DNA of 64,000 bases from Posidoniimonas corsicana (GTDB lineage: Bacteria > Planctomycetota > Planctomycetia > Pirellulales > Lacipirellulaceae): contig NZ_SIHJ01000001.1 of assembly GCF_007859765.1 (NCBI RefSeq), positions 1,880,067-1,944,066 on the forward strand. The letters run 5' to 3'. Below are positions 10,272 to 28,839 of this stretch, one piece after another. The notes beneath the pieces were generated by a model. The model was not told the DNA's origin. It searched no databases and worked only from the letters and a program-made list of their open reading frames with translations. Position 1 is the first letter of the stretch; every line of letters begins with the position of its first letter. Both the position numbers and the translations under genes were made by a program.

Positions 10272-11243
10272 ATGCGAATTCTCATGACCATAGCTGCTGC
10301 AGTACTCTTATTTCCCCCGACGGATTCCGCCCGCGGCGCTGAGGGCAAGCAGGACATCGTCGACACCGCGGTATCCGCGGGATCCTTTGGCACGTTGGCG
10401 ACCGCTCTCAAGGCTGCCAACCTGGTGGAGACGCTGAAGGGGGACGGGCCGTTCACCGTGTTCGCTCCCACCGACGCAGCTTTTAAGGCGCTTCCGGAGG
10501 GAACGGTGCATGAGCTGCTCAAGCCGGAGAACAAGAAGAAGCTCGCCTCGGTGCTTACTTACCACGTTGTCCCCGGCGCGAGTCCCGCGGCGGATGTTAC
10601 TAAGGTTAAGGGCCTGACCACGGTGAATGGTCAGCGCGTTGATATTGCGGTAGACGCTGGAAAGGTGAAAGTGGACGACGCCACTGTCGTGTCAGCCGAT
10701 ATTCACTGTTCGAATGGCGTCATCCACGTGATTGACCGGGTGATTCTGCCCGCCAGCGACGACATCCCCACGACCGCGAAGAAGGCTGAAGCGTTCTCTA
10801 CACTGCTTGCTGCGGCGAAGCAGGCGGGACTGGCAGAAGCGTTGGCCGGTGAAGGCCCGTTCACAGTCTTCGCTCCCACAGACCAGGCGTTCGAGAAGCT
10901 GCCGGCGGGCACCGTTGAGTCGCTGCTCAAACCGGAGAACAAAGATCGGCTGGCGTCGATCCTCAAGCATCACGTCGTCTCGGGGCGCGTTTATTCGGAC
11001 GCGGCGGTGAAGGCTGGTAAGGCGGAAACCCTGAACGGCGACAGTCTAACGATTGCCAAGGCCAAGGACGGGGCAAAGGTAGGCAACGCAAGGCTGCTCT
11101 CGACCGACATTGACGCTAGCAACGGCGTCATTCACGTAATTGACACGGTCTTGCTCCCGAAGGGTGGGACGCAGGCCTCGAGTCAGGTTCCAAGTGCACT
11201 ACACGTTAGTGCGCAAGCATCCTGCCCCGCCGCCGGCCACTAG
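10272..11243 (+). CDS. Secreted protein with two fasciclin (FAS1) domains
   Basis: The 323-residue protein begins with a signal peptide ([16 protein letters not shown] to about residue 26) and contains two FAS1 domains, about 26-160 and 165-300. Each shows the H1 box-like [21 protein letters not shown] and the later H2 region ([43 protein letters not shown] and its copy). The two copies are similar enough to suggest internal duplication. FAS1 proteins mediate adhesion at the cell surface or between matrix components. ATG 10272 is preceded by a weak GAGGA and directly precedes the signal peptide; the frame is open upstream to 10203 without signal-like sequence. It is monocistronic, with a strong terminator just downstream. 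Confidence 0.9.
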
Positions 11244-11404: not shown

Positions 11405-12889
11405 TTACCTCCTCTTTGTAGCTTCCGCTTCACTTACGATTCGTTTTAGCATGCCGCTAAAGATCAGTGCGTGTAGAGGATACAGGGCATACCAGTACGC
11501 AAGCCCTGCGATTCCAACAGGGTCGAAGATTGCTGTCTGGCGTATGGTGGAGCCGTGCTGGCTGGGGGTAACCTCGAATTCCAACCAGGCGCGCCCAGGG
11601 ACTTTCATCTCGGCAAGCAGACGCAGCCGGCCGGCGGGGTCGTACTCCTCGACCCGCCACCAATCGAGCACGTCTCCAACCCTCAGGTCTTGGGGATCTC
11701 GCCGCCCCCTCCGAATGCCGACGCCGCCAACTAGCAGGTCGATCCAGGCTCGGAGCTTCCACAGCGAGTTCGCGTAATACCACCCCCGCCTGCCGCCGAT
11801 GGTCTTGATCGGTTCGAAAGCGGCGCTCGGGTGGGCGTGGGTCTCCACGGTTCGGGAGTCGACGATGCGGTTCTTGAATCGGATGCCCCCCCAGGTTCGG
11901 GACCCCCGCGAAGCGGAGAGTGCGTCCGACCAGCGGGTCTCGGCGAACTCGTTGTCCTCAGCAACCAAAGCCCGCTTGATGGCCTCGGTGAGTCCGCGGG
12001 GCTGAATCGAGAAGGCCTTTCTACCCGTTGGGTCCTGGATGACCGTCGGGTTCTGCACACTGTCAATCAGAATCCTGCCGACGCGTGCATAGACCGGAGT
12101 GACTAGGCCGAGCCACAGGCTCGACAGGCGAGGGGTGAGCACGGGAACCGAGATCAGCCACCGGCGGAGGCCGCGCTGCCGGGCGTACTCCTCCATGATT
12201 TGGCCGTAGCTTACCTGATCGGGCCCACCAATCTCGAGCACCCGACTATCGTCCGCCGGCAGATCAACCGCGGCGAGCAAGTACTCGAGCAGGTCCTCGA
12301 CGGCGATCGGCTGCGTCAGGACCCCAACCCACCGTGGGCAGATCATCACCGGCAGTCGCTCGACCAAGGCCCGGACAAGTTCAAACGAAAGGCTGCCAGA
12401 GCCGATGACAATCGACGCCCGCAGCTCAACCACGGTGGCGCCCGACTCGAACAGCTGCCGTCCGACCTCGTGCCGACTGCGCAGGTGGGGTGAAAGCTCT
12501 TCGCTGTCGTCGCCGAGTCCGCCGAGGTAGATGATGCGGTCAACCCCGACCTTCTTTGCAGTCCTAGCGAAGTTCTCTGCCGCCGCTTTGTCTTGCTCTG
12601 CGAAATCCCCATCCGAACCCATCGAGTGGACCAGGTAGTAGGCGGCGTGCACGCCACGCAGCGCGTCGTCGAGGGATTCTGAATCGAGGAGGTCCCCTTG
12701 AACCACCTCGGTCGTGGGGGCCGCTCGGGCGGTGAGGTTCGCCGGGTTCCGCGCGAGGCACCGCAGACGGACGCCTCTCTGCTCGAGCTTCGTGAGCAGC
12801 CGGCCGCCGACGTAGCCCGTAGCGCCGGTTAAGAGGACGAGTCGGCCACCATCGATGCGGTCGGAGTCGGAACCCTTGGGAGTGCTCAT
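11405..12889 (-). CDS. SDR-family oxidoreductase with C-terminal DUF2867 domain
   Basis: The 494-residue protein has an N-terminal NAD(P)-binding atypical SDR domain with the glycine motif TGATGYVGGRL near residues 21-31, resembling NmrA/complex-I-39kDa-like epimerases (VVQGDLLDSESLDDALRGVHAAYYLVHSM). From about residue 330 the sequence turns into a DUF2867-type domain (GWYYANSLWKLRAWIDLLVGGVGIRRGRRDP, then VGDVLDWWRVEEYDPAGRLRLLAEMKVPGRAWLEFEV). The combination is a known architecture whose substrate is unknown. It is convergent to the fasciclin gene and divergent from the next SDR gene. Such SDR-DUF2867 proteins also occur in light- or stress-induced clusters with CFA synthase and DUF1365 in proteobacteria, so I group it with the lipid island here. 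No strong ribosome binding site is visible. Confidence 0.85.
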   Translation of the reverse strand: MSTPKGSDSDRIDGGRLVLLTGATGYVGGRLLTKLEQRGVRLRCLARNPANLTARAAPTTEVVQGDLLDSESLDDALRGVHAAYYLVHSMGSDGDFAEQDKAAAENFARTAKKVGVDRIIYLGGLGDDSEELSPHLRSRHEVGRQLFESGATVVELRASIVIGSGSLSFELVRALVERLPVMICPRWVGVLTQPIAVEDLLEYLLAAVDLPADDSRVLEIGGPDQVSYGQIMEEYARQRGLRRWLISVPVLTPRLSSLWLGLVTPVYARVGRILIDSVQNPTVIQDPTGRKAFSIQPRGLTEAIKRALVAEDNEFAETRWSDALSASRGSRTWGGIRFKNRIVDSRTVETHAHPSAAFEPIKTIGGRRGWYYANSLWKLRAWIDLLVGGVGIRRGRRDPQDLRVGDVLDWWRVEEYDPAGRLRLLAEMKVPGRAWLEFEVTPSQHGSTIRQTAIFDPVGIAGLAYWYALYPLHALIFSGMLKRIVSEAEATKRR

Positions 12890-13013
12890 CGCAATCCGGG
12901 ACTACTTGGATTAAAAAGGTTCAGCAGGCGCCGGTGAGTGCTGGTCAAGCCGATCGATCTGCCTAGAAAGAAGATAGGCAATTCACGGCAAGAGACAACC
13001 ATTGGAGTGGGTC

Positions 13014-13766
13014 GTGGCCGACGAGAAAGGCTCAGAATTAGGCTGCTGTGTCGTGCTTGGCGCCTCCGGGGACATCGGTTCCTGCGTCGCGAGGAGGCTG
13101 GCGTACCAGGGGCGCCGGTTGCTGCTAGCGGCGCCGGAGAGTGATCGGCTCTCGTCGCTCGCGGATGAACTGCGTGCCGACTCGATGCCTACCGATGCAA
13201 CTAGCTTCGAGGAGGTCGACGCTTGTTTGCAGGCGGCCCAGGAACGCTATGGTAGGGTCGGCGGTGTTGTTAATTGCGTGGGATCGGTCCTGCTGAAACC
13301 CGCCCACCTGACCACCGCAGACGAACTCCACGAGACGCTCTCGCTGAACCTGGTCTCAGCATTCTCGGTCGTGCGGGCGGCAGCGCAGAAGATGGATCGA
13401 TCGGGCGGATCGATTGTGCTCATCTCTTCGTCCGCCGCGAGGATCGGCCTCGTCAATCACGAAGCGATCGCTGCAGCGAAGGCTGGCATTGAGGGTTTGA
13501 CTCGTTCGGCAGCGGCGACCTACGCTCGGCGAGGGTTGCGCGTCAACGCGGTCGCCCCGGGGCTCGTGAAGACCAAGCTAACCGAGCGGATATGGAGCAG
13601 TGAGAGAGCTGCCGCACACTCGCAAGCCCTCCACGCCTTGGGGCGACTTGGCGAACCAGATGATGTAGCGTCACTGATCGCCTGGTTGCTGGATCCGCAT
13701 AACGCCTGGATTACAGGCGAGGTGATTGGCGTTGATGGCGGTCTTGGCCGTACCAAGCTCGCCTAG
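13014..13766 (+). CDS. Short-chain dehydrogenase/reductase (FabG-like)
   Basis: This classical SDR of about 250 residues carries the cofactor motif GASGDIG near the N-terminus, the NxxG-like VNCVGSVLL, and the catalytic Ser in VLISSSAARIG. The usual YxxxK is altered: the corresponding stretch reads HEAIAAAKAGIEGL, so the catalytic Tyr position appears to be His or Glu while the Lys is kept. The C-terminal RLGEPDDVASLIAWLLDPHNAWITGEVIGVDGGL is typical FabG-like. I place the start at GTG 13014 because GGAG lies 6 bases upstream; TTG 13002 is the alternative and adds four residues. It is divergent from the DUF2867 SDR gene. The substrate may be a ketone linked to fatty acid or lipid metabolism, judged by context only. 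Confidence 0.82.
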   Translation: MADEKGSELGCCVVLGASGDIGSCVARRLAYQGRRLLLAAPESDRLSSLADELRADSMPTDATSFEEVDACLQAAQERYGRVGGVVNCVGSVLLKPAHLTTADELHETLSLNLVSAFSVVRAAAQKMDRSGGSIVLISSSAARIGLVNHEAIAAAKAGIEGLTRSAAATYARRGLRVNAVAPGLVKTKLTERIWSSERAAAHSQALHALGRLGEPDDVASLIAWLLDPHNAWITGEVIGVDGGLGRTKLA

Positions 13767-13785
13767 GCCGCCACTTCTAGAGGTC

Positions 13786-14655
13786 CTAAAGAAAAGTAAC
13801 CTGGTCAGCAACTCGGCGGAACATCCTTAGCGGCGCCAAAAGGTTGGCTTTCCATCCTACAGCTCGCTTCGTAGCGCGACAAACGATGACCGTCGCATCG
13901 CCGGCTTCGAGGATGCGAGGGTTTGTCGCTTGGACCTCGCTGAGCAGGCGAGCCGCCAGCCGCTCAGTTCCATCCAGTACGAGACGCTCCGCCAATTTAC
14001 GGATCCCAGCGATGCCGAGAAGGTCTGAATGTGCGTCGACGCACTCCACCAGCGATCCGCTGTAGTAGAGGAGCACGTCCCCCACCGAAAGCCGGGTCTG
14101 CACTTCATGATACTCAGTGGATCTCAGCACCGTATCGGAATGCGTTTCACCAGAGTCGGAAATCGATCCTGAAAGTGCAATCCAAGCTTTCTCCGCATCG
14201 CGGAACAGAAGAGGCGGTGGATGACCAGCGTTGCAGATTGTAAGCGACCGTCGCGGAGAGAAGTAAGTGGCTAGGAGCGAGGAGGCGAAGCAACCGTGCT
14301 CGCTAGCATCGGCCAGACTCTTACTCATCCCCGCCACGCAGGCGTTTTGGCCTAGTCGGTTGACGTTGCGCTTCATCAACGAACGCAGATCGTTTGACAA
14401 CTCAGCAAACCCTTCGCCGCCCGCACAGATGTCCGCCATCAGCAAGCGTGTGATTCGTCCTGATGCGCACGAGGAAACGAGGTGAAGGTCCCCGCCACCC
14501 CTTTGGTGCTCGTTGGCAGAGAGGCTGCTAACCCAGATGTCCAACCCGGGGCGCTCTAAGCTGCACTGCCTCGGCCCGGCGCCGCCCCAAACCTCCATGC
14601 ATCCCATGGGAGCCGCGGGCGGACTCGATTCGTTGCTAACGAGTGATGTGCCCAT
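13786..14655 (-). CDS. PP2C/SpoIIE-type phosphatase domain protein with degenerate metal site
   Basis: The 289-residue cytoplasmic protein resembles planctomycete PP2C/SpoIIE-type serine phosphatases: MEVWGGAGPRQCSLERPGLDIWVSS, then GGGDLHLVSSCASGRITRLLMADI, and CNAGHPPPLLFRD (about residue 141). Conserved Asp56 (GGD) and Asp75 (AD) are kept. However the expected DVSGHG reads DICAGG, the Asp expected in the Y-S/T-D stretch is Gly200 (YYSGSL), and the C-terminal DD pair reads GD (252-253). Several metal-coordinating positions therefore look lost, so it may be a weak or dead phosphatase. The family usually acts on anti-sigma-antagonist or response-regulator partners, which is notable near a sigma factor gene. 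It follows the CFA-like methyltransferase in the leftward direction, 105 bases downstream. AAGG lies 5 bases before the ATG. Confidence 0.75.
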   Translation of the reverse strand: MGTSLVSNESSPPAAPMGCMEVWGGAGPRQCSLERPGLDIWVSSLSANEHQRGGGDLHLVSSCASGRITRLLMADICAGGEGFAELSNDLRSLMKRNVNRLGQNACVAGMSKSLADASEHGCFASSLLATYFSPRRSLTICNAGHPPPLLFRDAEKAWIALSGSISDSGETHSDTVLRSTEYHEVQTRLSVGDVLLYYSGSLVECVDAHSDLLGIAGIRKLAERLVLDGTERLAARLLSEVQATNPRILEAGDATVIVCRATKRAVGWKANLLAPLRMFRRVADQVTFL

Positions 14656-14760
14656 GAAAACCTTCTTTGGCGGGGGCGGAATCTTTTCCTCTACACTAGA
14701 CTGTCAAACAAGCTTGGCAAGAACGACGCGGAGAGTTCTAAGCTGTTTTACAGTCGCTGG

Positions 14761-15867
14761 TTAGCTCCGTGCGCGGGTTCCGCGCTCATGCTCAGGAGTA
14801 TTGAAATGGCTCACGTCGTCACCAACTGGGCAACGCATATTCTCAGTTTCCTCCTTAGGCTCCAAGAGATAGTGGTTAACAAGCCATTCTTGGCCGCCGT
14901 TGAACTTGAAGAGTTCTGCGCATGCCATGAAGAACATCCTCCATCTCTGCAAAGCGATACGCGCATCCGTAGGGCTGAGTGAAGCCGCGAAGACGCGAAG
15001 AAGGTCAGAACGGTTGCGGTCGAGGTTTGCGAGCCAAGCCTCGCAGGTTCGCCAGTACTGGAGTCCATCGACCCTCCACTCACTCGCAACGACCAGGTGC
15101 TCGTCGAATGAGCGAAACAGCCCGACTGACGGCATGACGCCACCGGTGAAGAAGTGCCTAGCCATCCAGTCGTTCTCGCCGGTTTGCTCGAAGAGGTACG
15201 GGGCCCGCCGGTTGCAAAAAACGTGCACAAACGCCTTGCCGCCCGGCGCGAGCCAGGAAGCGACTCGCTCGAAAAGCAACTCGTAGTTCCGCATGTGCTC
15301 GAACATCTCGATCGAAAGCACTCGGTCAAACTTGGCGACGGTCGAAAAGTCACACATGTCGGCTTCGACGACGTTGACGCTTGAGAGCCCCCTCTCGCGT
15401 GCCTGTCCAGCGATGTAGGCACGCTGCGTTGATGAATTGGTGACCGCCGTCACGCGGCAGGCGGGGAACTTCTCAGCAAGCCAAAGTGTCAATGAACCCC
15501 AACCACAGCCGAGCTCGAGCACCTTCATTCCGTCCTGAACCTCCGCCCGGGCGACGGTGAGGCCTAGCATTTCCGATTCGGCGTCCGAAAGAGTAGACGT
15601 CGCTTCATCAAACAGGCAGCAACTGTACTTTAGCCGCGGACCTAGCACTTTTTGAAAGAATTCGGTAGGCGCTTCATAATGCTGCTCATTCGCCGCGTCG
15701 GTAGCTACAGCGAGCGGTCCCTGTCTGAGCTGCTCGAGGATGCGATCGTTCTTACCTTGAAGATCTCCCAGTTGCGACTGCCGCATTGCCAGCAGACGGC
15801 GGATTCCCCAGCGGATGGCCACGTCGGGAATAAGCCCGCGTTCAGCGAGAAAGATGAAACTCTCCAT
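14761..15867 (-). CDS. CFA-synthase-like SAM-dependent methyltransferase
   Basis: The 368-residue protein belongs to the cyclopropane-fatty-acyl-phospholipid synthase (CFA/mycolic acid) methyltransferase superfamily. The SAM-binding motif VLELGCGWGSL is at residues 116-126, preceded by EQHYEAPTEFFQKVLGPRLKYSCCLF, the usual substrate-side motif (compare [24 protein letters not shown] of the second paralogue in this window). SIEMFEHMRNYE follows the second beta strand. Compared with true CFA synthase it lacks the long N-terminal domain and has a distinct C-terminus, and matches the subgroup often found beside DUF1295 and DUF1365 genes. Related enzymes methylate unsaturated acyl chains, some as a step toward furan fatty acids; the product here is not known. 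It is divergent from the DUF1295 gene across a 75-base region containing a perfect 12-bp palindrome. GGGAA lies 6 bases before the start. Confidence 0.82.
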   Translation of the reverse strand: MESFIFLAERGLIPDVAIRWGIRRLLAMRQSQLGDLQGKNDRILEQLRQGPLAVATDAANEQHYEAPTEFFQKVLGPRLKYSCCLFDEATSTLSDAESEMLGLTVARAEVQDGMKVLELGCGWGSLTLWLAEKFPACRVTAVTNSSTQRAYIAGQARERGLSSVNVVEADMCDFSTVAKFDRVLSIEMFEHMRNYELLFERVASWLAPGGKAFVHVFCNRRAPYLFEQTGENDWMARHFFTGGVMPSVGLFRSFDEHLVVASEWRVDGLQYWRTCEAWLANLDRNRSDLLRVFAASLSPTDARIALQRWRMFFMACAELFKFNGGQEWLVNHYLLEPKEETENMRCPVGDDVSHFNTPEHERGTRARS

Positions 15868-15894
15868 ACCGGATTCCCATGGTTCTTAGTCGCC

Positions 15895-15906
15895 CTACAA
15901 TTGTAG
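15895..15906. promoter_or_regulatory. Perfect 12-bp palindrome in the divergent promoter region
   Basis: CTACAATTGTAG is a perfect palindrome located between the starts of the leftward CFA-like methyltransferase gene (15867) and the rightward DUF1295 gene (15943). It contains TACAAT, a good -10 hexamer, on both strands. Leftward, TACAAT lies 17 bases from a poor -35 TTCTAA. The same CTACAAT heptamer forms the -10 region of the MerR-like regulator gene, so this may be either a shared -10 element or an operator overlapping it. Confidence 0.5.
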
Positions 15907-15942
15907 CGATGCGGCAACCCCCTTAGAACGCGGTGAGAGCAC

Positions 15943-16710
15943 ATGCAGGGTGTAATGGGGATGAATCTCGCGGTTCTCGCGGGATATTTCGTAGCAATCT
16001 GGTTCCTGAGCCTGGTCGTACGAGACGCAAGCATTGTGGACATCGGCTGGGGCCTCAGTTTTGTCGTTGTTGCGTGGGTAACTTGGTCCGTTACCGATCC
16101 GACTTCTTGGAGAGAATACCTCCTCATCCTCCTCGTTACCGTCTGGGGGCTGCGGCTATCGGGCTATCTGGCCTGGCGTAACCTTGGCCAGCCTGAGGAT
16201 CATCGCTACCGCAAGATGCGAGAAAGCCACGGCGCATGGTTTCCACTGGTCAGCCTCTTTACGGTGTTTCTACTCCAAGGGGCGGTCGCGTGGGTGGTGT
16301 CCTTTCCAGTGCAGGCCGGCGTTTTCAGCAGCGGCCGATTGAGTTCTACCGCCTACTTGGGCGTCGGGCTATTCGTGATTGGCCTCGTGTTCGAGACGGT
16401 AGGCGACTACCAGCTCGCACGCTTCAAGGCCGATCCAGACAACCAGGGCGTCGTAATGGACCAAGGGCTTTGGCGGTATACCCGGCATCCAAACTACTTT
16501 GGCGACTTTATGGTGTGGTGGGGGTTGTACGCGGTGGCGGCGACGCCTGGCAACTGGTGGTGGACAGCGATTGGCCCATCCGTAATGTCGGTCTGCCTGA
16601 TCTGGGTTTCAGGTGTACGACACCTGGAGAACGCTATCCGGAACCGCAGAGAGGGCTACGAGGAGTACGTGAATCGCACTAGCCCATTCTTTCCAATGCC
16701 GCCCAAGTAA
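15943..16710 (+). CDS. DUF1295 family membrane protein (steroid 5-alpha-reductase/isoprenylcysteine-methyltransferase-like)
   Basis: The 255-residue integral membrane protein has about six transmembrane helices and the DUF1295 signatures: VRDASIVDIGWGLSFV near the N-terminus, LRLSGYLAWRNLGQPEDHRYRKMRE, and the C-terminal motif QGLWRYTRHPNYFGDFMVWWGLY followed by EGYEEYVNRTSPFFP. The RHPNYFG block is shared with steroid 5-alpha reductases and ICMT enzymes, where it helps bind NADPH or SAM. Members often sit in clusters with CFA synthase, DUF1365 and FAD oxidoreductases, as here, which suggests a reductase or methyltransferase working on acyl chains in the membrane. It opens the rightward run of five genes. 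ATG 15943 is used; ATG 15961 is an alternative. Confidence 0.85.
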   Translation: MQGVMGMNLAVLAGYFVAIWFLSLVVRDASIVDIGWGLSFVVVAWVTWSVTDPTSWREYLLILLVTVWGLRLSGYLAWRNLGQPEDHRYRKMRESHGAWFPLVSLFTVFLLQGAVAWVVSFPVQAGVFSSGRLSSTAYLGVGLFVIGLVFETVGDYQLARFKADPDNQGVVMDQGLWRYTRHPNYFGDFMVWWGLYAVAATPGNWWWTAIGPSVMSVCLIWVSGVRHLENAIRNRREGYEEYVNRTSPFFPMPPK

Positions 16711-16772
16711 AGTGAACAATTCATGGAAACTCGCCCTTGGCATTGCGTACTAGGCGCCTACAGCCGTAAGTG

Positions 16773-17729
16773 ATGTCAGTCGACTACAACTCAGAACGCA
16801 TGGCACGAGCCGAAACAAACGACCGCGTTGAGTGGTTTCGCGTGATCCCCTTTCTACTGCTCCATGCGGCTTGCGGCCTAGTGCTGTTGGTGGGATGGAG
16901 CTGGCCCTCCGTCGCAGCCGCGGGCTTCGTCTACGCGGCGCGTGTATTCGGGTTAACCGCGTTTTATCACCGCTACTTCGCCCACCGGGCGTTCAAAACT
17001 AGTCGCGGGGTCCAATTCTTGGGGGCGCTGCTAGGCTGCAGCGCTGCTCAACGTGGGCCGATCTGGTGGGCAGCCCATCACCGCCATCATCACCGCGCAT
17101 CCGATCGGCACGACGATATCCACTCTCCCGTTCAGCAGGGTTTCATTTGGAGCCACATGCTTTGGTTTATGACCCGCAACGCCTACCGCACAAATACCAA
17201 GCTGGTCAAAGATTGGTTGAAGTTCCCCGAGCTTCGCCTGATTGATCGGTTTGACTTCTTAGCGCCAGTCGCCCTGGCAACCGCATTGTATGCGATTGGT
17301 GAAGTGCTGCAGGCGTACTGGCCAACGAGCGGGGTGAGCGGTCTTCAGATGGTGGTGTGGGGATTCGTGTTGTCCACAGTGGCGCTGTATCACGTCACAT
17401 TCTCAATCAACTCGCTGGCGCACCGACTGGGATCTCGGCGCTACGATACGCGCGACGAGAGCCGCAACAATTGGTGGCTCGCTCTGCTCACTTTCGGGGA
17501 GGGGTGGCACAACAATCACCATCACTTCCCATCGTCGGCCCGGCAGGGGTTCTTTTGGTGGGAAGTAGATTTAACCTACTACGGCCTTGTGGTGCTATCG
17601 TGGTTGGGGATTGTGTGGGAACTGAAGCCGGTTCCGGCCCGAGTGCTCTCGCCAGCGCAAGAGACGCCAAAGAAGGGGGACGACCGATGCGAATTGCCGT
17701 CATCGGGGCTGGCGTCAGCGGATGTGTAG
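16773..17729 (+). CDS. Membrane fatty acid desaturase (acyl-CoA Delta-9 type)
   Basis: The 318-residue protein carries the three histidine boxes of membrane di-iron desaturases: HRYFAH in FYHRYFAHRAFKTSR (about residue 70), HHRHHHRASD (about 105), and HNNHHHFP (about 248), with hydrophobic pairs of helices between them. The pattern RGPIWWAAHHRHHHRASDRHDDIHSP is typical of stearoyl-CoA-type Delta-9 desaturases, also found in bacteria acting on phospholipid or acyl-CoA chains. It would supply the double bond that the two CFA-type methyltransferases of this island modify. It lies 62 bases after DUF1295 and its 3' end overlaps the next start by 43 bases. GTG 16770 and ATG 16800 are alternative starts. 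Confidence 0.88.
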   Translation: MSVDYNSERMARAETNDRVEWFRVIPFLLLHAACGLVLLVGWSWPSVAAAGFVYAARVFGLTAFYHRYFAHRAFKTSRGVQFLGALLGCSAAQRGPIWWAAHHRHHHRASDRHDDIHSPVQQGFIWSHMLWFMTRNAYRTNTKLVKDWLKFPELRLIDRFDFLAPVALATALYAIGEVLQAYWPTSGVSGLQMVVWGFVLSTVALYHVTFSINSLAHRLGSRRYDTRDESRNNWWLALLTFGEGWHNNHHHFPSSARQGFFWWEVDLTYYGLVVLSWLGIVWELKPVPARVLSPAQETPKKGDDRCELPSSGLASADV

Positions 17730-18967
17730 CCGCCAGACTCCTCTCAACCAGACACGACGTCAAACTCTTCGATGCCGCCGACTACCCGGGTGGCCACGCG
17801 AATACTGTCGTGGTCGCAGAGAACGGCCGGCCAGTTGCCGTCGACACGGGCTTTATGGTGTTCAACCAGCGCACGTACCCGAACTTCTGTCGGCTACTTG
17901 GTATGCTCGGCATTGACTCCAGGCCGAGTGACATGAGCTTCAGCGTGCGTGACGATGCCCGCGGCCTCGAGTACCAGGGAAGCTCTCTGAATGGTGTTTT
18001 TTCGCAGCGTGCCAATCTTCTCCGACCGCGTTTCCTGGGGATGCTCCGGGACATCATTCGGTTTAACTCGTGCGCCACGCGTGCAGTGCAAGCGGGATCG
18101 GTTCCTCGTGACCAAACCGTCGAGGGCTACTTAGACCAGCACCGGTTGGGGTCGGGTTTTCGGAACTCTTACTTCTTGCCGATGGCCGCAGCCATCTGGT
18201 CGTGCAGCCCGAGCGATATCGCTGAGTTCCCCGCGCACTTTATGCTTGGGTTCTTTGCGAACCATGGCCTGCTGCAGTTGAAAGACCGCCCGCAATGGAA
18301 GACGATCCCTGGCGGATCAAATAGATATGTGCGTCAATTGCTAAATCCCATCGCAGGCTCGGTGCGGCTCTGCAGTCCAGTTACACTGGTCCGTCGACTC
18401 CCCGGCGGCGGGGTGCTCGTAGTCGTCGATGGAGAGGAGGAGCTATTCGACCACGTCGTACTAGCGGTCCATGCGGATCAGGCGTTGGCGGTCCTGGATG
18501 ACGCCTCTCCGGAAGAGCAGGCGGTGCTGAACTGCTTCCCTTACCGCAGGAGCCGAGCGGTCCTGCACACGGACACTAGTCTGCTTCCGAGGCGGGTGCA
18601 GGCATGGGCAAGCTGGAACTACTACGTGCCGACTTCTAAGACCGCTGGCGCGACCGTCACTTATGATCTCCGTCGATTGCAGGGATTGCCAACAGACCAC
18701 GCCCTGCTGCTCACCCTCAACGACGCTGAGCGGATCGCGCCAGCAAAGATTCTCGACTCGTTCGAGTACGCCCATCCAGCGTACGGCCTGCGGTCCGTTT
18801 CGGCGCAGGCCCGCCACGCGGACATCAGCGGGGTGCGACACACGCACTACTGCGGCGCCTACTGGGGGTTCGGATTTCATGAGGATGGCGTCAACAGCGC
18901 GCTTCGTGTAGCAGCGGCCTTCGGACTTGGACTCGAATCATGCAGAGCTGCCTTTACGAAGGTGTAG
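17687..18967 (+). CDS. FAD/NAD(P)-dependent oxidoreductase (amine-oxidase-like, COG2907 type)
   Basis: The 426-residue flavoprotein begins with a Rossmann dinucleotide-binding motif IAVIGAGVSGCVAARLL (GxGxxG at residues 7-12) and continues with FDAADYPGGHANTV and VAVDTGFMVFNQRTYPNFCRLLGMLGI, the hallmark of the predicted NAD/FAD-binding group COG2907. The C-terminal HYCGAYWGFGFHEDGVNSALRVA is also diagnostic. These proteins occur almost always next to DUF1365 and a CFA synthase, as here, and a role in modifying unsaturated or methylated acyl chains has been proposed for such clusters. ATG 17687 is preceded by AAGGGGG and starts inside the desaturase gene (43-base overlap), so the two are probably translationally coupled. 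The frame is open upstream only as a shadow of the desaturase. Confidence 0.87.
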   Translation: MRIAVIGAGVSGCVAARLLSTRHDVKLFDAADYPGGHANTVVVAENGRPVAVDTGFMVFNQRTYPNFCRLLGMLGIDSRPSDMSFSVRDDARGLEYQGSSLNGVFSQRANLLRPRFLGMLRDIIRFNSCATRAVQAGSVPRDQTVEGYLDQHRLGSGFRNSYFLPMAAAIWSCSPSDIAEFPAHFMLGFFANHGLLQLKDRPQWKTIPGGSNRYVRQLLNPIAGSVRLCSPVTLVRRLPGGGVLVVVDGEEELFDHVVLAVHADQALAVLDDASPEEQAVLNCFPYRRSRAVLHTDTSLLPRRVQAWASWNYYVPTSKTAGATVTYDLRRLQGLPTDHALLLTLNDAERIAPAKILDSFEYAHPAYGLRSVSAQARHADISGVRHTHYCGAYWGFGFHEDGVNSALRVAAAFGLGLESCRAAFTKV

Positions 18968-19734
18968 TCAGCCATCACCGACGCGCGCCGACGTCGCATA
19001 GGCTGCGGCGACGCGTCTACATGGCCTATCTGGATCTGGACGAAACTGATTGGCTCGCGGACCGCGGGATCCTTCCGCAGCGCAGGGCGTACCACACCTA
19101 CCGCGATCGAGACCATGTGGGCGGGGCGGACGGAGACCTTAAAGACTCTCTGCTGCAATTCTTGTCCCGCGAACACGGTCTTCGCCCGGGAGGCCCGGTT
19201 CGGTTGCTGACTCAGCTGCGCGTCATGGGTCTCTACTTCAGTCCACTGAACCTGTACTACTGCTTCGACTCGTCCGGCGTGGACGTTCGGGCGGTGGTTG
19301 CCGAGGTCAGCAACACACCATGGAATGAAAGGCGCCGCTATGTGCTTTCAGACCTCAAACAGTCGGGACGACCAAAGCGTCTCGCGTTCGCTCACCCGAA
19401 AGACTTCCATGTCTCGCCATTCATGCCGATGGACATGACCTACCACTGGCGGCTGACCGAGCCAGGCCAAACGGTCGGCGTACGAATACAAGCAGTTCGT
19501 GCCGACAGGGTGGAACTGAACGCGACCATGGCGCTCAACCGCCGCGAACTAACTCCCGCCAATCTCTCAGCTCTTGCCTTGCGTCATCCCGTTGCACCGG
19601 TCCAGATCGTGGGCGGGATCTACTACCATGCCCTCAAGCTCTGGTGCAAGAAATGCCCCACCTTTCCCCACCCGTTGCGGACCGGGAATCCGCCGAACCA
19701 CAGCAGCGGAAGAGTCCCAGAGCACGCACCCTAG
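18940..19734 (+). CDS. DUF1365 domain protein
   Basis: The 264-residue protein matches DUF1365: SCLYEGVVSHHRRAPTSHRLRRRVYMAYLDLDE at the N-terminus, the block VRLLTQLRVMGLYFSPLNLYYCFD, and EVSNTPWNERRRYVL, then FHVSPFMPMDMTYHWRLTEPG. Function is unproven; genetic linkage to an FAD oxidoreductase and CFA synthase is conserved across many bacteria. It starts 28 bases before the end of the oxidoreductase gene, and the CFA synthase gene begins inside its 3' end, so the three are very likely co-translated. Soluble, with no signal peptide. The C-terminal 25 residues after KLWCKKCPTFPHP are covered by the overlapping gene and may be unconstrained. Confidence 0.87.
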   Translation: MQSCLYEGVVSHHRRAPTSHRLRRRVYMAYLDLDETDWLADRGILPQRRAYHTYRDRDHVGGADGDLKDSLLQFLSREHGLRPGGPVRLLTQLRVMGLYFSPLNLYYCFDSSGVDVRAVVAEVSNTPWNERRRYVLSDLKQSGRPKRLAFAHPKDFHVSPFMPMDMTYHWRLTEPGQTVGVRIQAVRADRVELNATMALNRRELTPANLSALALRHPVAPVQIVGGIYYHALKLWCKKCPTFPHPLRTGNPPNHSSGRVPEHAP

Positions 19735-20966
19735 GCGATCTCCTTCCTGCAATCAGTGGCCCGCCTAGAGTCATTGGAAGCGGCACGGCCCGCGCACTAG
19801 TGTTTCGCAAGCTGGGGACGATCCGCGATGGTCTCTTGCGTGTGCGGGAGGGCTCGCATGAAACAGTGTTCGGCCACAATACTGAGTGTGAAATTGAGGG
19901 CGAATTAGCTGTCCGCGACCAAGGTTTCTACTTGCTGCTTGCGACAGGTGGGGCGAACGGCGCCGCTGAGGCCTACCTGAGGGGGTACTGGGATACACCG
20001 GACCTGACGCGGGTCCTGCGGGTGATGGCTAGGAACCTCTCCACTTCCGCACGAATTGGGGGGCTGGCTAGCTGGCTGGTATCTCCTCTCACCTACCTCT
20101 CCAGGGCCGCCTGCCGCAACACAGTGCGGGGGAGCAGGAGGAACATCGCCGCCCACTACGACCTGAGCAACGAGTTCTTCGAGCTGATGCTCGACCCGAC
20201 GATGACGTACTCTTGCGGCGTGTTTGAGCATGAAATGTCGACGTTGGAGGAGGCTTCGCTTGAGAAGTACGACCGATTGTGTCGCCTAATCAGGCTGAGC
20301 GATGCCGACCACGTGCTGGAAATCGGTACCGGGTGGGGCGGATTCGCCGAGTTCGCCGTTGAAAGATACGGCTGCCGTGTCACCACGACAACGATATCGA
20401 AAGAGCAGCATGCGTACGCCAGCAAGCGGCTCCGCTCAGGCCGCTGCGCTGGTCGAGTTAACTTACTGCAAACCGATTACCGCGAGTTGACTGGAGAATT
20501 CGATAAGCTGGTATCTATTGAGATGATCGAGGCGGTGGGTGAGCAGTTCCTGCCTGAGTACTTCGCAAAGTGCTCATCGCTGCTGCGTCCACAGGGGGCA
20601 ATGGCCCTGCAGGCAATCACCATACCCGATCAACGATACGATCATTACCGCCGGGGTGTCGACTTCATTCAGAAGTACATCTTTCCGGGCGGTTTTCTTC
20701 CGAGTATTGGGAAGATTGCATCCTGCATTGGCGGCCACACTGACATGCGGCTGACGTACTCGGAGGACTTCAGCAGAGACTACGCTCAAACGCTCGCGGC
20801 CTGGCGTGGTCGGTTCTCAGAGAACCGGCGGCGAGTGCTCGAACTTGGGTTCGACCAACGCTTCCTGCGGATGTGGGAGTACTACCTATGCTATTGCGAG
20901 GCGGGGTTTCTCGAGAGGAAGGTTGGCGTCCACCAACTGTTGTACAGTAAACCACTTGCAAGGTAG
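19653..20966 (+). CDS. cfa: Cyclopropane-fatty-acyl-phospholipid synthase
   Basis: The 437-residue enzyme is a full-length CFA synthase, which transfers a methylene from SAM to the double bond of an acyl chain in a membrane phospholipid. After an N-terminal domain of about 140 residues come IAAHYDLSNEFFELMLDPTMTYSCGVF, the SAM motif VLEIGTGWGGFAEFA (about 220-234), SIEMIEAVGEQFLPEYFAKCSSLL with the conserved Glu of the bicarbonate site, and AITIPDQRYDHYRRGVDFIQKYIFPGGFLPS. ATG 19653 is chosen; GTG 19644 is close. It overlaps the DUF1365 gene by 82 bases and is the last gene of the rightward run. It is a paralogue of the shorter methyltransferase at the left of the island, so the island encodes two different acyl-chain methyltransferases. 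Confidence 0.92.
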   Translation: MPHLSPPVADRESAEPQQRKSPRARTLGDLLPAISGPPRVIGSGTARALVFRKLGTIRDGLLRVREGSHETVFGHNTECEIEGELAVRDQGFYLLLATGGANGAAEAYLRGYWDTPDLTRVLRVMARNLSTSARIGGLASWLVSPLTYLSRAACRNTVRGSRRNIAAHYDLSNEFFELMLDPTMTYSCGVFEHEMSTLEEASLEKYDRLCRLIRLSDADHVLEIGTGWGGFAEFAVERYGCRVTTTTISKEQHAYASKRLRSGRCAGRVNLLQTDYRELTGEFDKLVSIEMIEAVGEQFLPEYFAKCSSLLRPQGAMALQAITIPDQRYDHYRRGVDFIQKYIFPGGFLPSIGKIASCIGGHTDMRLTYSEDFSRDYAQTLAAWRGRFSENRRRVLELGFDQRFLRMWEYYLCYCEAGFLERKVGVHQLLYSKPLAR

Positions 20967-21009
20967 GCAAGTAAGACGCGTATAAATGCAGTTAGTCGCA
21001 GATGCTCAA

Positions 21010-21879
21010 CTAAGACTCCGGCATCGCGTTGCGAAGCGTGCCTGCGAAGGCCTCGAGATGCTGCATGTTATCGCAGTAGGCGGCGTACTGCATCTGGCGC
21101 CGGGTGGATTCTTTCAGGGCCGTCCCCCCGACCACGAATGCGGTCGTTGAACCGTGTTCGTTGTAGAGGCGGTCGTACTCGGCTAGAAACCGGCTTTCGT
21201 CAGTCAGGTAAGAGCAGCTCACCCACAAGAGTTTGGGCCGTCGCACGCGGATTGCTTGATCAAGCGACGCCAGCGGCAGGTTCGAACCCAATGAAAAGGC
21301 ATTCCACTGGCAGTCCTTGAGGACCAGCTCGGCCATAGTCGTAGCGAGCGAGTAGTGGTCGCCCGCGGTTGAGCAGCCTATCGCGATTGGCGCCTTCGCC
21401 ACCCTAGGGAGGAACGTCGAAAGCTCCTGCAGGACGCGGTGAAGAATTACGCACGCGTGACGCTCCTGGAACACCTCAGCGTCCCCGCACGACCACGCGT
21501 CGCCGATCCGCTCGAATGCCAGTGCGAAGACCTCATCGCAGACGCGGCTCAGCTTGAACTCGGCAAGGTAAAGATCTATTGCGACCTGCCTGGCGCTCTG
21601 CTCGTCGCCCCGCAGCAGCGCGTCGGTCAGCCCGGTGACGGCGCGATCCAGCACGAATTCCCCTTTACCGCTGGTGGCGGGGAGCCCGAGTGCTTCTGGA
21701 AAGGCGAGTTTGTGTTTCGAGTCTGCTAGAAAACGCATCAAGGAGGGCAACGAGACACGTCGGTGTCCTCCTGGTGTGTACTCCGTCTCAATTACCCCCT
21801 TGTCACACCAACGCTTCACCGACGACTCGCTGACCGCCAGGGCCCTTGCGACCTGCTTTGGCGTGATTCGACTGACCAT
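21010..21879 (-). CDS. MerR-type HTH regulator with B12-binding-like domain (LitR/CarH architecture)
   Basis: The 289-residue protein has an N-terminal MerR-like helix-turn-helix (TPKQVARALAVSESSVKRWCDKGVI, then GGHRRV) at about 5-50, and a C-terminal cobalamin-binding-like module of about 75-285. LitR and CarH regulators with this layout use adenosylcobalamin as a light sensor. Here the hallmarks are altered: the Wx9EH motif of the helical cap reads W129, then E139-R-H141, and the ExHxxG motif reads GDHYSL, with the lower-ligand His175 kept but its Glu and Gly replaced. The SLGSNLPLASLDQAI region fits the fold. B12 binding is therefore uncertain. Divergent from the sigma factor gene; a TTGCCC-17-TACAAT promoter precedes it. 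It probably represses or senses for the lipid genes upstream. Confidence 0.82.
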   Translation of the reverse strand: MVSRITPKQVARALAVSESSVKRWCDKGVIETEYTPGGHRRVSLPSLMRFLADSKHKLAFPEALGLPATSGKGEFVLDRAVTGLTDALLRGDEQSARQVAIDLYLAEFKLSRVCDEVFALAFERIGDAWSCGDAEVFQERHACVILHRVLQELSTFLPRVAKAPIAIGCSTAGDHYSLATTMAELVLKDCQWNAFSLGSNLPLASLDQAIRVRRPKLLWVSCSYLTDESRFLAEYDRLYNEHGSTTAFVVGGTALKESTRRQMQYAAYCDNMQHLEAFAGTLRNAMPES

Positions 21880-21943
21880 GCTGGCGTTCAGGTGATTTGC
21901 ACGAATTTACTGCTGATCCAATCCCAGCGATTTTGCCTAAAGC

Positions 21944-21972
21944 ATTGTAGAACAAACCTGATTCTCGGGCAA
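21944..21972 (-). promoter_or_regulatory. Sigma-70-type promoter for the MerR-like regulator
   Basis: On the minus strand TTGCCC (21972-21967) is followed after exactly 17 bases by TACAAT (21949-21944), 65 bases from the ATG. The -10 hexamer sits in the heptamer CTACAAT also present in the palindrome at 15895-15906, which suggests co-regulation or autoregulation. Confidence 0.55.
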
Positions 21973-22041
21973 ATTGGCGTATATGCTGTGGATGCGGCTA
22001 CCCGGTCGGGGTGGTCTGAGGAGTTTTTCTGATTATTTTGG

Positions 22042-22070
22042 TTGAATTCATACGGCGAACTCCATATGAT
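22042..22070 (+). promoter_or_regulatory. Sigma-70-type promoter for the sigma factor gene
   Basis: TTGAAT (22042-22047) and TATGAT (22065-22070) are separated by exactly 17 bases. The predicted transcript would have a leader of about 38 bases, ending in the ribosome binding site GGAGAG (22102-22107) 7 bases before ATG 22115. This is one of the clearest promoters in the window and uses housekeeping-like boxes. Confidence 0.65.
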
Positions 22071-22114
22071 CGAGTGAGCGTTTTGAACGAATTGCACGCC
22101 CGGAGAGTCCAAAC

Positions 22115-23053
22115 ATGACTGCTCTAATCGACACGGCACCCCCTGCTTCTCCTAGCGAGTCGCCTTCTCAAGCTAGGTCGCTCGAGATGCTGATGTCAGC
22201 GGATACGTCGTTCATCCCGAATGATGGCTTCTCTACCCGCACGAAAGTTAGGCGATGCGCGACCTGGGAGCGCCTGCGTAGTCAGCTGACAGGTCGATCC
22301 GACGGGAGAAAATCCACCGGCCCGGTAGCAGGACTTGGGTCGACTGAGCTCTTGTCGCCCGCGGAGGAGGCTGAGTTGTTCCTCCGCATGAACTTCCTCA
22401 AGTTCAGGACCAGCGCACTAAAGAAGAGAATCGCACGCGGCGAACAGAGAACAGAGTTGATAGAGCGTGCAACCGTGCTGCTCGATGAAGCATTGGCGGT
22501 CCGCAACCATTTAATTACCGCCAACATGCGACTAGTCATGGCTGTGGCCAAGAAGTACGTGTCGCCTGTACATGCGTTCGACGAGCTGGTGAGCGAGGGC
22601 ACGATGACGCTCATGCACGCAGTCGACAAGTTCGATGCCGATCGCGGGTTCCGATTCAGCACCTACGCCTACCGCTCAATTGCCCGGAATCTCTACAGGT
22701 GCGTGATGGATGCTCAGAAGGAAAAACAGCGTGTTCCCTGCAGCGTTGAAGAGCACGCCGTGGAGCCAGTGTCTGAGTCACAGGGGTCTGCCGCTCTGGA
22801 CCAATCTTGGCAGAATGTCCGGCGATTGGCTTACTCGATGCTTGAGGGATTGGACCGCCGCGAGAAGTTCATCATCCGCAGCCGTTACGCCTTAGGTGCT
22901 CACCGCAAACCTCGGACATTCCAGTACTTGGCGGACAAGCTTGGCATCTCCAAAGAACGCGCTCGACAACTCGAAGGGCGGGCCGTCAGCAAGCTCAAGC
23001 AGATGGCCGAATCCTACGACCGCGACGAGTTGTTTGGAGCGGTCGTCTCGTAA
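22115..23053 (+). CDS. Sigma-70 family RNA polymerase sigma factor lacking an evident region 3
   Basis: The 312-residue protein has an unconserved N-terminus of about 75 residues, then a region 1.2-like SPAEEAELFLRMNFLKF, region 2 with VRNHLITANMRLVMAVAKKY and VSEGTMTLMHAVDKFDADRGFRFSTYAYRSIARNL (2.1-2.4), and region 4 with LDRREKFIIRSRYALG and the helix-turn-helix FQYLADKLGISKERARQLEGRAVSKLKQM. Between regions 2 and 4 only about 45 residues occur, too few for a normal region 3 domain. It is thus group-2/3-like in regions 1.2, 2 and 4, but two-domain in layout. A clear promoter and GGAGAG site precede ATG 22115. Divergent pairing with the MerR/B12-like regulator suggests it drives the lipid island under a stress signal. 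Confidence 0.88.
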   Translation: MTALIDTAPPASPSESPSQARSLEMLMSADTSFIPNDGFSTRTKVRRCATWERLRSQLTGRSDGRKSTGPVAGLGSTELLSPAEEAELFLRMNFLKFRTSALKKRIARGEQRTELIERATVLLDEALAVRNHLITANMRLVMAVAKKYVSPVHAFDELVSEGTMTLMHAVDKFDADRGFRFSTYAYRSIARNLYRCVMDAQKEKQRVPCSVEEHAVEPVSESQGSAALDQSWQNVRRLAYSMLEGLDRREKFIIRSRYALGAHRKPRTFQYLADKLGISKERARQLEGRAVSKLKQMAESYDRDELFGAVVS

Positions 23054-23257: not shown

Positions 23258-26023
23258 CTATCGATCGACGCGGCGTACGATCACTTGCTCCGACCGGCCT
23301 CCATCGAGAACGGGCACGTCGAACGACCAGGTCGAATCTGCAGAACTGCAAGAATGGTCGCCTAGCGTTTTCCCGCCTGCTGTGGCCCGCCACAGCCCCT
23401 GCTGCGGGAGCGAGACGGTCACTGGCGTGGAACCTCGCACCGGGTTGTCGCTCTCGATGCGGAACGCGATTGAGGACAAATCTGTCGATAGCTCGAGTTG
23501 CTCGCCGGATTGGAAGCGGTCTGTTTCAAGCAGCAAGTGGAGTTTGCGATCGTCTAGCAATGCGTGGAACCGTCGGCGTAGCCCGTCACGTGGTTCGACT
23601 CTAAGCCTTTTCCCATCCGACTCTGACAGGGCGCCGCCGAAGCAGAAACGCCCGAAGATGGGGTCATCGGCGAGCACGGTCGCCGCCGATCGCAGCGCAC
23701 CGCAGTATCCGAGGTCGATCTCGCACGCGTAATACCAAGCACCACGGTGGTGGGGCTGGTTCAGCCACGTCTCGCCCGATAGCGCGGGCTCGAAGCCGCC
23801 TCCAGCGGCGCCATCGTGTTGCTTGCCTGGATACCAGTAGCCGTAGTTGGACTCCGGCGTGCCGGAGTTCATCAGCGCCCACGAGCTCAGGTACGACGTG
23901 TAACCGAGCCTGAGGTACTCCGCCGGCTCGTCCGCGTAGTAGAGTCCGTAGTCGAGCACCGACCAACCGCCCATCTGCGCCATATAGCTGAGTGTGTATC
24001 CGTCACCGCCGCGGCCGCGGTAGTCGCTCCCCAGGTAGTAGTACGCCGGTTCGATGACGCCCCGACAGAACAGGTTTGCGGCGAGCTGCTTTTCCATGAA
24101 GGCCTTCGCCTCTTGCCTAGTGTAGCCAAGGGACTCTCCGGTGCCGGCTGATGCGGACGCCTGCTCCACGGCGTACTTCGCCAGCGCGTGGGTCGACTCG
24201 AAGCCGGTCGAGTCGAAAGCGTACTCCGACTGGAATAGATCGATCTTTCCGTTAACAAACTGCTCCGCCTTGTGCGCCCAGCACTGCCGCAGGAGCCGCG
24301 CCTCGGCCTGCCTGCCGGCGCGCTCCAATGCATCAATCAGATCGACCAGGACCAGCTCGTTGTAGTATCCGGTGGGATAGCCCGACCACTGCACGATATC
24401 CCACGGGACCGTGAACATAGCCCACGCCGTACCGAACGCCCGTTGCAAGTACTCTTCGGCGGTCAGTCGCGTACGGATGTTGGGGAAGTCGCGGGCCAAG
24501 CGGTGCATGTGGTAGTAGATGAGCACGATGTGGGGGTAGTCGTAAGTTCTCCACAGGTGCTGCTGGCCCTTCTCGCCCGGATCGTCACTCTCGCGGTTCT
24601 GCTTCCAGTCTGGGATTCCGTAGATCCCGTAGGAGTAGGGTTCCGTCGTGGTGCGCTGCAGGCCGCCCCAGACGAAGTGCTCGACGTAGTCGTCCAGCGC
24701 AGTGACTTCCCGCTGATCGGGGTACTCGGAATTTTTGGCCGCCAGGAAGGCGGGCTTGCAGAGTCCTGGGTCGTCGCAGGTGACCTCGTAGATCCTCCAC
24801 CCCTTGATCCGGTCGTAGTTGTCTGGTCCGAGCAGGACGCCGCTCTCCATATTCCATTCCGAGATCAGCCCGTGGTACCACTTGCTCGGGTCCAGATGCT
24901 GACAGCGGGCGATGAAGCTGGCGCGCTTCTTGATCAACGTCTCCAGCGGCTCGGTAGAGAAGTACTCGAGGTAGACGTGGCGTCCGTCGCCGTAGCTGAC
25001 CTTGAGGCGGTTCTCGCCTAGCTTGCCGAACTTGACGCGCCAACGGCTGTAGTCGCCATTCGGAGGCAGCTTGTCGATCTGGGTTTCCTCGGGGAACTCG
25101 GCTTCCACCAAAGCGATGGGGTGCTGACAGCGAAGCGCGAGTTCCGCGTGGAGATCCGACGGGATCGTCATGCCGGGCGCGACATGGATGTCGACCAGGC
25201 CGTTCTGGACCAGCAGGTCGCGGACGTGGTCGTAGTCGTCTGCCCACTGGAAACGGAACGAGTAGGTGCGTTTGCTGCGTCGGGCGCCCTTGGGCTGCAG
25301 GATGGCGGTGGTGTGGGGCTGCCGCCACTTGCCTCCCTGCTCAGACGTCTCTGGCCCAATCACGCCGGAGTGGGCGTAAGCGCGGTACAGCCCGCGTTTC
25401 ACGTCCCAGTACTCAAGAGCTGTGTCGCCGATGGGCGTCATTGTCAGGTAGGGGCCAACGCTATTCGAACGCATCCAGAAGAAGAATGACCCATGCCCAG
25501 ATACGAAGCTATGCTTCAGCACCGATGTTGTAGCCGAACCGCGTGCGAATCGCGTATTCATCGGCAGCGGAAACGCGAGGTCTCCCACCTCGATGGGCGC
25601 TTCGCTTGTGTTCTCTAGAGTTACTGTCCAATCGATCGACTCCGTGGCAACGCGGATCGCAATCGTGACGTTCAGCTTAGGTGCAGGTATCGCGTAGGTT
25701 GTGGTGCGCTCGCTGGCGCCGCCATTCGATTGCGTCGCTCCCTTCTCTGCCAGGTCTGAGGTGCTGATCGACCGCCATTCTCCTCCCGGTTTCCGCAGCC
25801 TCAGGTCGACGTCGCCAAGTCGCGCCCCCGAACGGATGTAGGGAGTATCGAACGCGTCGTCGACCCTGCGCAGATCGACGATCGCACCATCGGACCACTC
25901 AACCTTGAAGGTCTCGGAAGGCGATGCAAGACACGTGCCCGCGCTAAGCGTGCACAGCGTCAAGAGCACCGCGGTTGTCGAAGGACGCGACAGTGTGACT
26001 TGGGGCGATCTGGGAGCTCTCAT
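23258..26023 (-). CDS. Secreted DUF5695-like protein
   Basis: The 921-residue protein begins at ATG 26023 with a signal peptide (hydrophobic TTAVLLTLCTLSAGTCLAS around residues 16-35). The frame is open another 57 codons upstream, but those codons look non-coding. The body starts with KVEWSDGAIVDLRRVDDAFDTPYIRSGARLGDVDLRLRKPGGEW and is rich in Trp and Tyr, with GLISEWNMESGVLLGPDN, YDYPHIVLIYYHMHRLARDFP and YYYLGSDYRGRGGDGYTLSYMAQMGGW in the helical second half. This is the pattern of DUF5695, a family with a beta-rich N-terminal part and an (alpha/alpha)-toroid-like part similar to glycosidases; no substrate is established. The name is assigned from memory of family style and is uncertain. 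It is the last gene of a leftward set with the two genes to its right, 302 bases apart. Confidence 0.72.
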   Translation of the reverse strand: MRAPRSPQVTLSRPSTTAVLLTLCTLSAGTCLASPSETFKVEWSDGAIVDLRRVDDAFDTPYIRSGARLGDVDLRLRKPGGEWRSISTSDLAEKGATQSNGGASERTTTYAIPAPKLNVTIAIRVATESIDWTVTLENTSEAPIEVGDLAFPLPMNTRFARGSATTSVLKHSFVSGHGSFFFWMRSNSVGPYLTMTPIGDTALEYWDVKRGLYRAYAHSGVIGPETSEQGGKWRQPHTTAILQPKGARRSKRTYSFRFQWADDYDHVRDLLVQNGLVDIHVAPGMTIPSDLHAELALRCQHPIALVEAEFPEETQIDKLPPNGDYSRWRVKFGKLGENRLKVSYGDGRHVYLEYFSTEPLETLIKKRASFIARCQHLDPSKWYHGLISEWNMESGVLLGPDNYDRIKGWRIYEVTCDDPGLCKPAFLAAKNSEYPDQREVTALDDYVEHFVWGGLQRTTTEPYSYGIYGIPDWKQNRESDDPGEKGQQHLWRTYDYPHIVLIYYHMHRLARDFPNIRTRLTAEEYLQRAFGTAWAMFTVPWDIVQWSGYPTGYYNELVLVDLIDALERAGRQAEARLLRQCWAHKAEQFVNGKIDLFQSEYAFDSTGFESTHALAKYAVEQASASAGTGESLGYTRQEAKAFMEKQLAANLFCRGVIEPAYYYLGSDYRGRGGDGYTLSYMAQMGGWSVLDYGLYYADEPAEYLRLGYTSYLSSWALMNSGTPESNYGYWYPGKQHDGAAGGGFEPALSGETWLNQPHHRGAWYYACEIDLGYCGALRSAATVLADDPIFGRFCFGGALSESDGKRLRVEPRDGLRRRFHALLDDRKLHLLLETDRFQSGEQLELSTDLSSIAFRIESDNPVRGSTPVTVSLPQQGLWRATAGGKTLGDHSCSSADSTWSFDVPVLDGGRSEQVIVRRVDR

Positions 26024-28710: not shown

Positions 28711-28839
28711 ACTGAAGCAGCTCCATGCGTGGTGGGATCGTTGGCGCGAAAAAAGCACGCGGCCGACGGCGCGTCTGGTGACGCGCCGCCAGCGGACGTG
28801 CCATTGGAAAACTCTCGACACCCTATCGTGTGCCGCGCG

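Follow-up and report, generated by a model that had tools for sequence, protein, structure and literature searches.

A probable furan fatty acid biosynthesis locus with an adjoining B12-fold regulator and sigma factor gene in a planctomycete

Furan fatty acids scavenge singlet oxygen and have been proposed as signals, and their synthesis has been worked out genetically, in the literature that we found, only for two Alphaproteobacteria. In Rhodobacter sphaeroides and Rhodopseudomonas palustris, UfaM methylates an 18:1 chain, UfaD (RSP1091) gives rise to a methylated diene, and the DUF1365 protein UfaO (RSP1090) forms the furan with O2 (PMC7380195). In R. palustris the genes lie in the order ufaD-ufaO-ufaM (RPA2571-2570-2569) and each step of the pathway has been proven (PMC7380195). 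In this species a further methyltransferase, FufM (RPA0924), which shares 26% identity with UfaM, adds a methyl group to the furan ring and so yields a dimethyl-furan fatty acid; in R. sphaeroides the ufa genes are part of the singlet-oxygen response. Here we describe a gene cluster of the planctomycete Posidoniimonas corsicana, located in a 64,000-nucleotide stretch (G000:C1:1880067-1944066; the window, whose coordinates are used throughout) of a 6.77-Mb assembly that is 95% complete. Its gene families and gene order suggest that it probably encodes the synthesis of furan fatty acids, and we propose that it carries a transcriptional switch of its own that acts in two steps.

The regulatory part of the cluster also has described relatives. 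In Streptomyces coelicolor, LitR drives litS, and the sigma factor LitS then transcribes the effector (crt) genes. CarH of Thermus and CtMerR, a validated light receptor, share a fold composed of a helix-turn-helix (HTH), a cap and a B12-binding domain, and the published signature of light sensing by adenosylcobalamin (AdoCbl) comprises the motifs GxxW, EH, GxxH and GxxxP. The class II LitR proteins of Pseudomonas (PplR/PmlR) are thought to be unable to bind B12, and ufaM is among the light-induced genes that they control. BldC of Streptomyces, a protein of 68 residues without a sensor domain, binds head to tail to 9-bp direct repeats whose crystal-derived site is AATTXXXX(C).

The ufa core, its methyltransferases and its product

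The window carries on the forward strand, in overlapping frames, genes for a COG2907-type, amine-oxidase-like FAD oxidoreductase (ufaD homologue, PF01593; 17687-18967), a DUF1365 protein (ufaO homologue, PF07103, E 1.3e-68; 18940-19734) and a methyltransferase annotated as a cyclopropane fatty acid (CFA) synthase (CFA2, PF02353; 19653-20966). These are the same three protein families, in the same order, as RPA2571-2569 of R. palustris. Immediately upstream is a DesA-like fatty acid desaturase gene (FA_desaturase, PF00487; 16770-17729, forward strand), preceded by a DUF1295 membrane protein gene (PF06966, E 1.5e-71; 15943-16710, forward strand) and, divergent from the latter, a second S-adenosylmethionine (SAM)-dependent methyltransferase gene (CMAS1, PF02353; 14761-15867, reverse strand). 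Profile searches showed that every gene named in a preliminary description of this DNA, made from the letters alone, is an open frame with the place, orientation and family reported, and the COG2907-DUF1365-CFA-DUF1295 module recognised there was recovered from family matches and order. The overlaps between consecutive genes were likewise confirmed: 43 bases for desaturase/ufaD (17687-17729), 28 for ufaD/ufaO (18940-18967) and 82 for ufaO/CFA2 (19653-19734). The last of these hinges on the choice of start codon; the ATG at 19653 is preferred, since similarity to other CFA proteins extends as far upstream as about 19788, whereas the next possible start is at 19800. The ATG of ufaD at 17687 stands at the start of the Rossmann motif. 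In contrast to the proteobacterial pathway, the window belongs to a planctomycete, has a desaturase within the operon and a second methyltransferase and DUF1295 adjoining it, and lacks an ECF11 sigma/ChrR pair beside the cluster.

Among the products envisaged earlier (a branched, cyclopropane or furan fatty acid), the furan is the best supported, since the DUF1365 protein is UfaO and the genes follow the ufaD-ufaO-ufaM order. Residues H12, R14, D32, T126, Y134, K154 and S159 of the window UfaO, a predicted furan-forming oxygenase encoded by a single-copy gene in this genome, are invariant across planctomycetes and Proteobacteria. Its AlphaFold model (pLDDT 89) has a beta-barrel-like fold and gave no Foldseek match at E 0.001. 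The best VIA-align match (Z 7.5), to nitrobindin/FABP-like barrels, is below the trustworthy level, and we therefore claim no cofactor for UfaO.

The two methyltransferases belong to distinct lineages (23-30% identity between the types). CFA2 shares 41-47% identity with the CFA proteins linked to ufaO in Proteobacteria and 33% with E. coli Cfa, and in the tree E. coli Cfa stands apart from all ufaO-linked CFA proteins, CFA2 among them (SH-aLRT 99). The protein earlier described as a full CFA synthase is thus placed with the ufaO-linked methyltransferases and not with E. coli Cfa. Cyclopropane was rejected as the product on the same ground. CMAS1 forms its own clade (SH-aLRT 100) together with the second methyltransferases found in the ufa loci of Mesorhizobium and Acinetobacter, to which it is 46-47% identical. 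Like FufM, it is a second, divergent SAM-dependent fatty-acyl methyltransferase of a ufa-bearing genome, and its distance from CFA2 resembles that between FufM and UfaM. CMAS1 is the best candidate here for the FufM role, although its gene lies within the cluster in divergent orientation to DUF1295 and the likeness is one of distance and context only.

A pathway that stops before the furan, so that methyl-branched or cyclopropane fatty acids are made and UfaO plays a different role in planctomycetes, would agree with the membership of both methyltransferases in the CMAS family, and with the mere 29-39% identity of UfaO to its proteobacterial homologues (UfaD is 39-48% identical to proteins in the UfaD position, and the desaturase 50% identical to that preceding ufaD on an Acinetobacter plasmid). 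We consider it unlikely in view of the seven invariant UfaO residues, the position of CFA2 outside the E. coli Cfa lineage and the fact that UfaD and UfaO were never found apart from a methyltransferase in the 101 planctomycete DUF1365 loci compared.

In those loci UfaD, UfaO and the CFA-like gene occurred together without exception (101/101), which places the gene set far beyond chance; the comparison of DUF1365 neighbourhoods in other planctomycetes, set beforehand as a test of the cluster, was thus positive. The CFA-like gene lies downstream of ufaO on the same strand in 100 of the loci. DUF1295 is present in 86, a second CMAS-family methyltransferase in 77 and a desaturase in 27 (26 of them upstream on the same strand). 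Among 294 genomes sampled across the phylum, 82 (about 28%) have UfaO itself, and so do 88 of 297 sampled from the order. A fused membrane protein with an apparent polyketide-cyclase-type C-terminal domain (L110 3234-4196 and similar) is a neighbour in 21 of the 101 loci.

The proteobacterial set comprised 86 loci, six from plasmids and 80 from genomes (R. palustris was not among the 80), with a second methyltransferase in 30 and DUF1295 in 34. On an Acinetobacter plasmid the genes run consecutively as desaturase-UfaD-UfaO-CFA-DUF1295-methyltransferase, about 2 kb after a photolyase gene. In Mesorhizobium terrae, methyltransferase-DUF1295 stands beside an extracytoplasmic function (ECF) sigma-ChrR pair and UfaD-UfaO-CFA is followed by a fasciclin gene, while Salinivibrio and Pseudoalteromonas carry a photolyase-linked form of the cluster. 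Two acyl methyltransferases had been regarded as a planctomycete peculiarity; this novelty was dismissed, as the same pair occurs in Alphaproteobacteria and Acinetobacter. The reported absence of photolyase is correct both for the cluster and for the whole 95%-complete genome, but it is not a planctomycete trait, given a photolyase-like neighbour in 13 of the 101 loci. In the plasmid set, a 5.37-Mb record labelled Klebsiella pneumoniae (CP125156.1, 507878-508579) encodes a UfaO 46% identical to that of the window; the record is possibly a mislabelled chromosome.

A B12-fold regulator without the cobalamin histidines

Downstream of CFA2, on the reverse strand, lies the gene of a regulator (21010-21879) with a BldC-type HTH, a B12-binding cap and a degenerate B12-binding fold (Pfam HTH_17, PF12728; B12-binding_2, PF02607; and a sub-threshold match to B12-binding, PF02310). 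The protein was earlier designated MerR/B12-like; its HTH is of the BldC/HTH_17 type, not a classical MerR domain, and matches the NCBIfam BldC model NF033787 with E 6e-9 and 35.5 bits, under the cut-off of 77. The closest solved structure is CtMerR (PDB 8jbs; E 4e-23).

In an alignment of the window protein with 48 planctomycete homologues, two motifs of the light signature are kept: GxxW (W131; G126..W129 in the window protein, with W in 48 of the 49 sequences) and GxxxP (G198..P202; 49/49). The two histidine motifs are lost. EH (E141-H142) has become E139-R140, with Arg in all 49, and GxxH with the axial H177 has become G173..Y176, with Tyr in 46, Phe in two and Ala in one; the non-carrier control of the published signature likewise lacks H177. 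The loss of both cobalamin histidines throughout the family makes canonical His-on cobalamin light sensing unlikely, and so weakens, without removing, the LitR/CarH-type B12 sensing suggested earlier. The regulator may bind cobalamin in another mode, or another ligand. Light or oxidative stress may still be the ultimate signal.

These residues also bear on the possibility that this is a canonical CarH/LitR class I cluster, in which AdoCbl is bound, light breaks the Co-C bond, and green or blue light turns on the lipid genes. The fold and domain order are CarH-like, nearly all of the 49 homologues retain GxxW, GxxxP, the GG motif, the Glu of EH and the Asp of DxHxxG, and ufaM is induced by light under LitR-type regulators in Pseudomonas. 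The replacements at the His142 and His177 equivalents, however, affect two positions of the light signature itself, the score against the NCBIfam CarH equivalog (45 bits) falls far under its cut-off of 400, and the genome contains no photolyase. We consider a class I cluster improbable.

In comparison with CarH and CtMerR, the planctomycete family thus keeps the HTH, cap and B12 fold together with the W, the E and GxxxP, and differs in having ER for EH and GxxY for GxxH. Like the class II LitR proteins, it is a LitR relative with a possible loss of B12 binding and a tie to ufa genes. The Pseudomonas proteins, however, keep the four-helix bundle only and act with a LOV protein, whereas the window regulator keeps the whole B12 fold. 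It is conceivable, and we propose it tentatively, that the planctomycete regulators represent a new sensor class of the CarH/LitR superfamily, with an invariant Arg and a near-invariant Tyr in place of the histidines, a different ligand or partner, BldC-type 9-bp repeats and control of furan fatty acids through their own sigma-70-type factor. A literature search for CarH together with planctomycetes found no paper. A second regulator of the same family is encoded elsewhere in the genome (L141, G000:C1:3577659-3596659; match at 3586659-3587489). It is 31% identical to the first, also has ER, carries Ala at the axial-His position and has no ufa genes nearby.

The operator, the sigma factor and their coupling to the ufa genes

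The regulator gene is divergent from a gene for a sigma-70-family factor with regions 2 and 4 (PF04542 and PF04545; 22115-23053, forward strand). Common to the regions upstream of the regulator genes is AATTCGTTC-AAAACGTTC, arranged as 9-bp direct repeats. Allowing at most one mismatch, the pattern CGTTCAAAWCGTTCA gave 49 matches in 1.97 Mb of loci, of which 46 lie upstream of a regulator and/or sigma gene; the consensus was derived from the same upstream regions as were scored, hence the use of independent checks. The reversed pattern, searched as a control, gave no match in the same 1.97 Mb. The repeat period is nine in 34 of the 46 upstream regions, as against one to three at each of the periods 7, 8, 10, 11 and 12 and six at 18, itself twice nine. 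The 35 strict sites all have the same orientation, and the repeats agree with the BldC site AATTXXXX(C). The HTH and the operator grammar both resemble those of BldC, from which the regulator differs in having a B12 fold.

The genome of P. corsicana has a single intergenic site, the putative operator GCGTGC-AATTCGTTC-AAAACGCTC-A (22075-22099, reverse strand), between regulator and sigma gene. No wider regulon emerged in this genome, as the 19 further places at two mismatches are all inside open reading frames. The operator lies four bases after the -10 element of a sigma gene promoter predicted by consensus only (TTGAAT-N17-TATGAT; 22042-22070, forward strand). Because it overlies the predicted transcription start, the regulator would act by repression and not by activation. 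With the putative operator at the predicted promoter of the divergent sigma gene, the layout is that of LitR-LitS, in which a B12-fold regulator controls a sigma gene, but the window regulator has a BldC-type HTH with 9-bp repeats and has lost both B12 histidines, and its sigma-70-type factor adjoins lipid genes instead of carotenoid genes.

Of the 65 genomes that have both, 28 have the regulator no more than 12 kb from ufaO, against 0.25 expected; the linked cases come from several families of the order as well as from a second group within the class. This bears out the assignment of the regulator and sigma factor to the cluster in the preliminary description. The regulator-sigma pair could also be an independent module that only happens to adjoin the ufa operon and has other genes under its control. 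The pair does occur without nearby ufa genes (e.g. in genomes G311, G389 and G464), regulator and ufaO are apart in the other 37 of the 65 genomes, and there is no operator at one mismatch near the ufa promoter of the window. Against such independence stand the excess and the taxonomic spread of the linked cases, and five operator matches that sit directly between regulator and ufaD. We consider this explanation doubtful, though not negligible.

Several observations weigh against the two-step scheme. Of the 47 loci with enough upstream sequence, 21 have a sigma-70-type gene divergent from the regulator, seven have ufaD in this position and 18 have neither. Many ufa loci lack a regulator nearby, so that the coupling is frequent and not universal. 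The five matches between regulator and ufaD imply that the sigma step is not obligatory everywhere, and suggest that, where these genes are divergent, the same operator may control ufaD directly. Moreover, the intergenic region between CMAS1 and DUF1295 showed no recognisable sigma-dependent promoter motif, and no motif common to this gap and that between regulator and sigma gene was recognised by eye. Finally, the proposed orthology to Ufa/FufM proteins is based on family, gene order and the intermediate proteobacterial loci.

In the mechanism that we propose, all chemistry would take place on phospholipid acyl chains. The desaturase would supply an 18:1-type chain, which the UfaM-type enzyme CFA2 would methylate with SAM; UfaD would desaturate the methylated chain to a conjugated diene, and UfaO would insert oxygen from O2 and close the furan ring. 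CMAS1 might then add a second methyl group in a FufM-like manner, in some relation with DUF1295. The regulator, bound head to tail to the 9-bp repeats over the start of the sigma gene, would hold this gene down until a signal arrives; upon its release, the sigma factor would be made and would direct RNA polymerase to the lipid genes. By analogy with R. sphaeroides, singlet oxygen or another membrane (photo-)oxidation would be the most likely ultimate stress.

Flanking genes and biological significance

Upstream of CMAS1 lies the gene of a SpoIIE-type PP2C-like protein (PF07228; 13786-14655, reverse strand), homologues of which adjoin the regulator or sigma gene in several relatives. Its metal site, read without an aligned reference phosphatase, keeps GGGD and the Asp of ADI, with SGS for SDG and GDAT for DDxT, and the protein may be a pseudo-phosphatase. 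The metal-site Asp residues are kept in some relatives. More loosely linked are a short-chain dehydrogenase/reductase (SDR; PF13561; 13002-13766, forward strand) and a DUF2867-SDR fusion (NAD_binding_10 and DUF2867; PF13460 and PF11066; 11405-12889, reverse strand), each present in seven of the 101 planctomycete ufa loci and in some regulator loci.

Just outside the range first assigned to the cluster is a fasciclin-domain protein of secreted type (10203-11243), which may belong to the island. Fasciclin genes lie within 8 kb of ufaO in eight of the 101 loci and also beside the Mesorhizobium ufa genes. Beyond the sigma gene are a large DUF5695 protein (23258-26194) and a GSDH-type sugar dehydrogenase (26326-28821).

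A literature search joining furan fatty acids with planctomycetes found no paper. Since about 28% of the sampled genomes of the phylum nevertheless hold UfaO, the lipids of planctomycetes are worth examining. The regulator has a defined putative operator and, within its genome, one predicted primary target, and it offers a natural test of the B12 light-sensor fold without its cobalt ligand.

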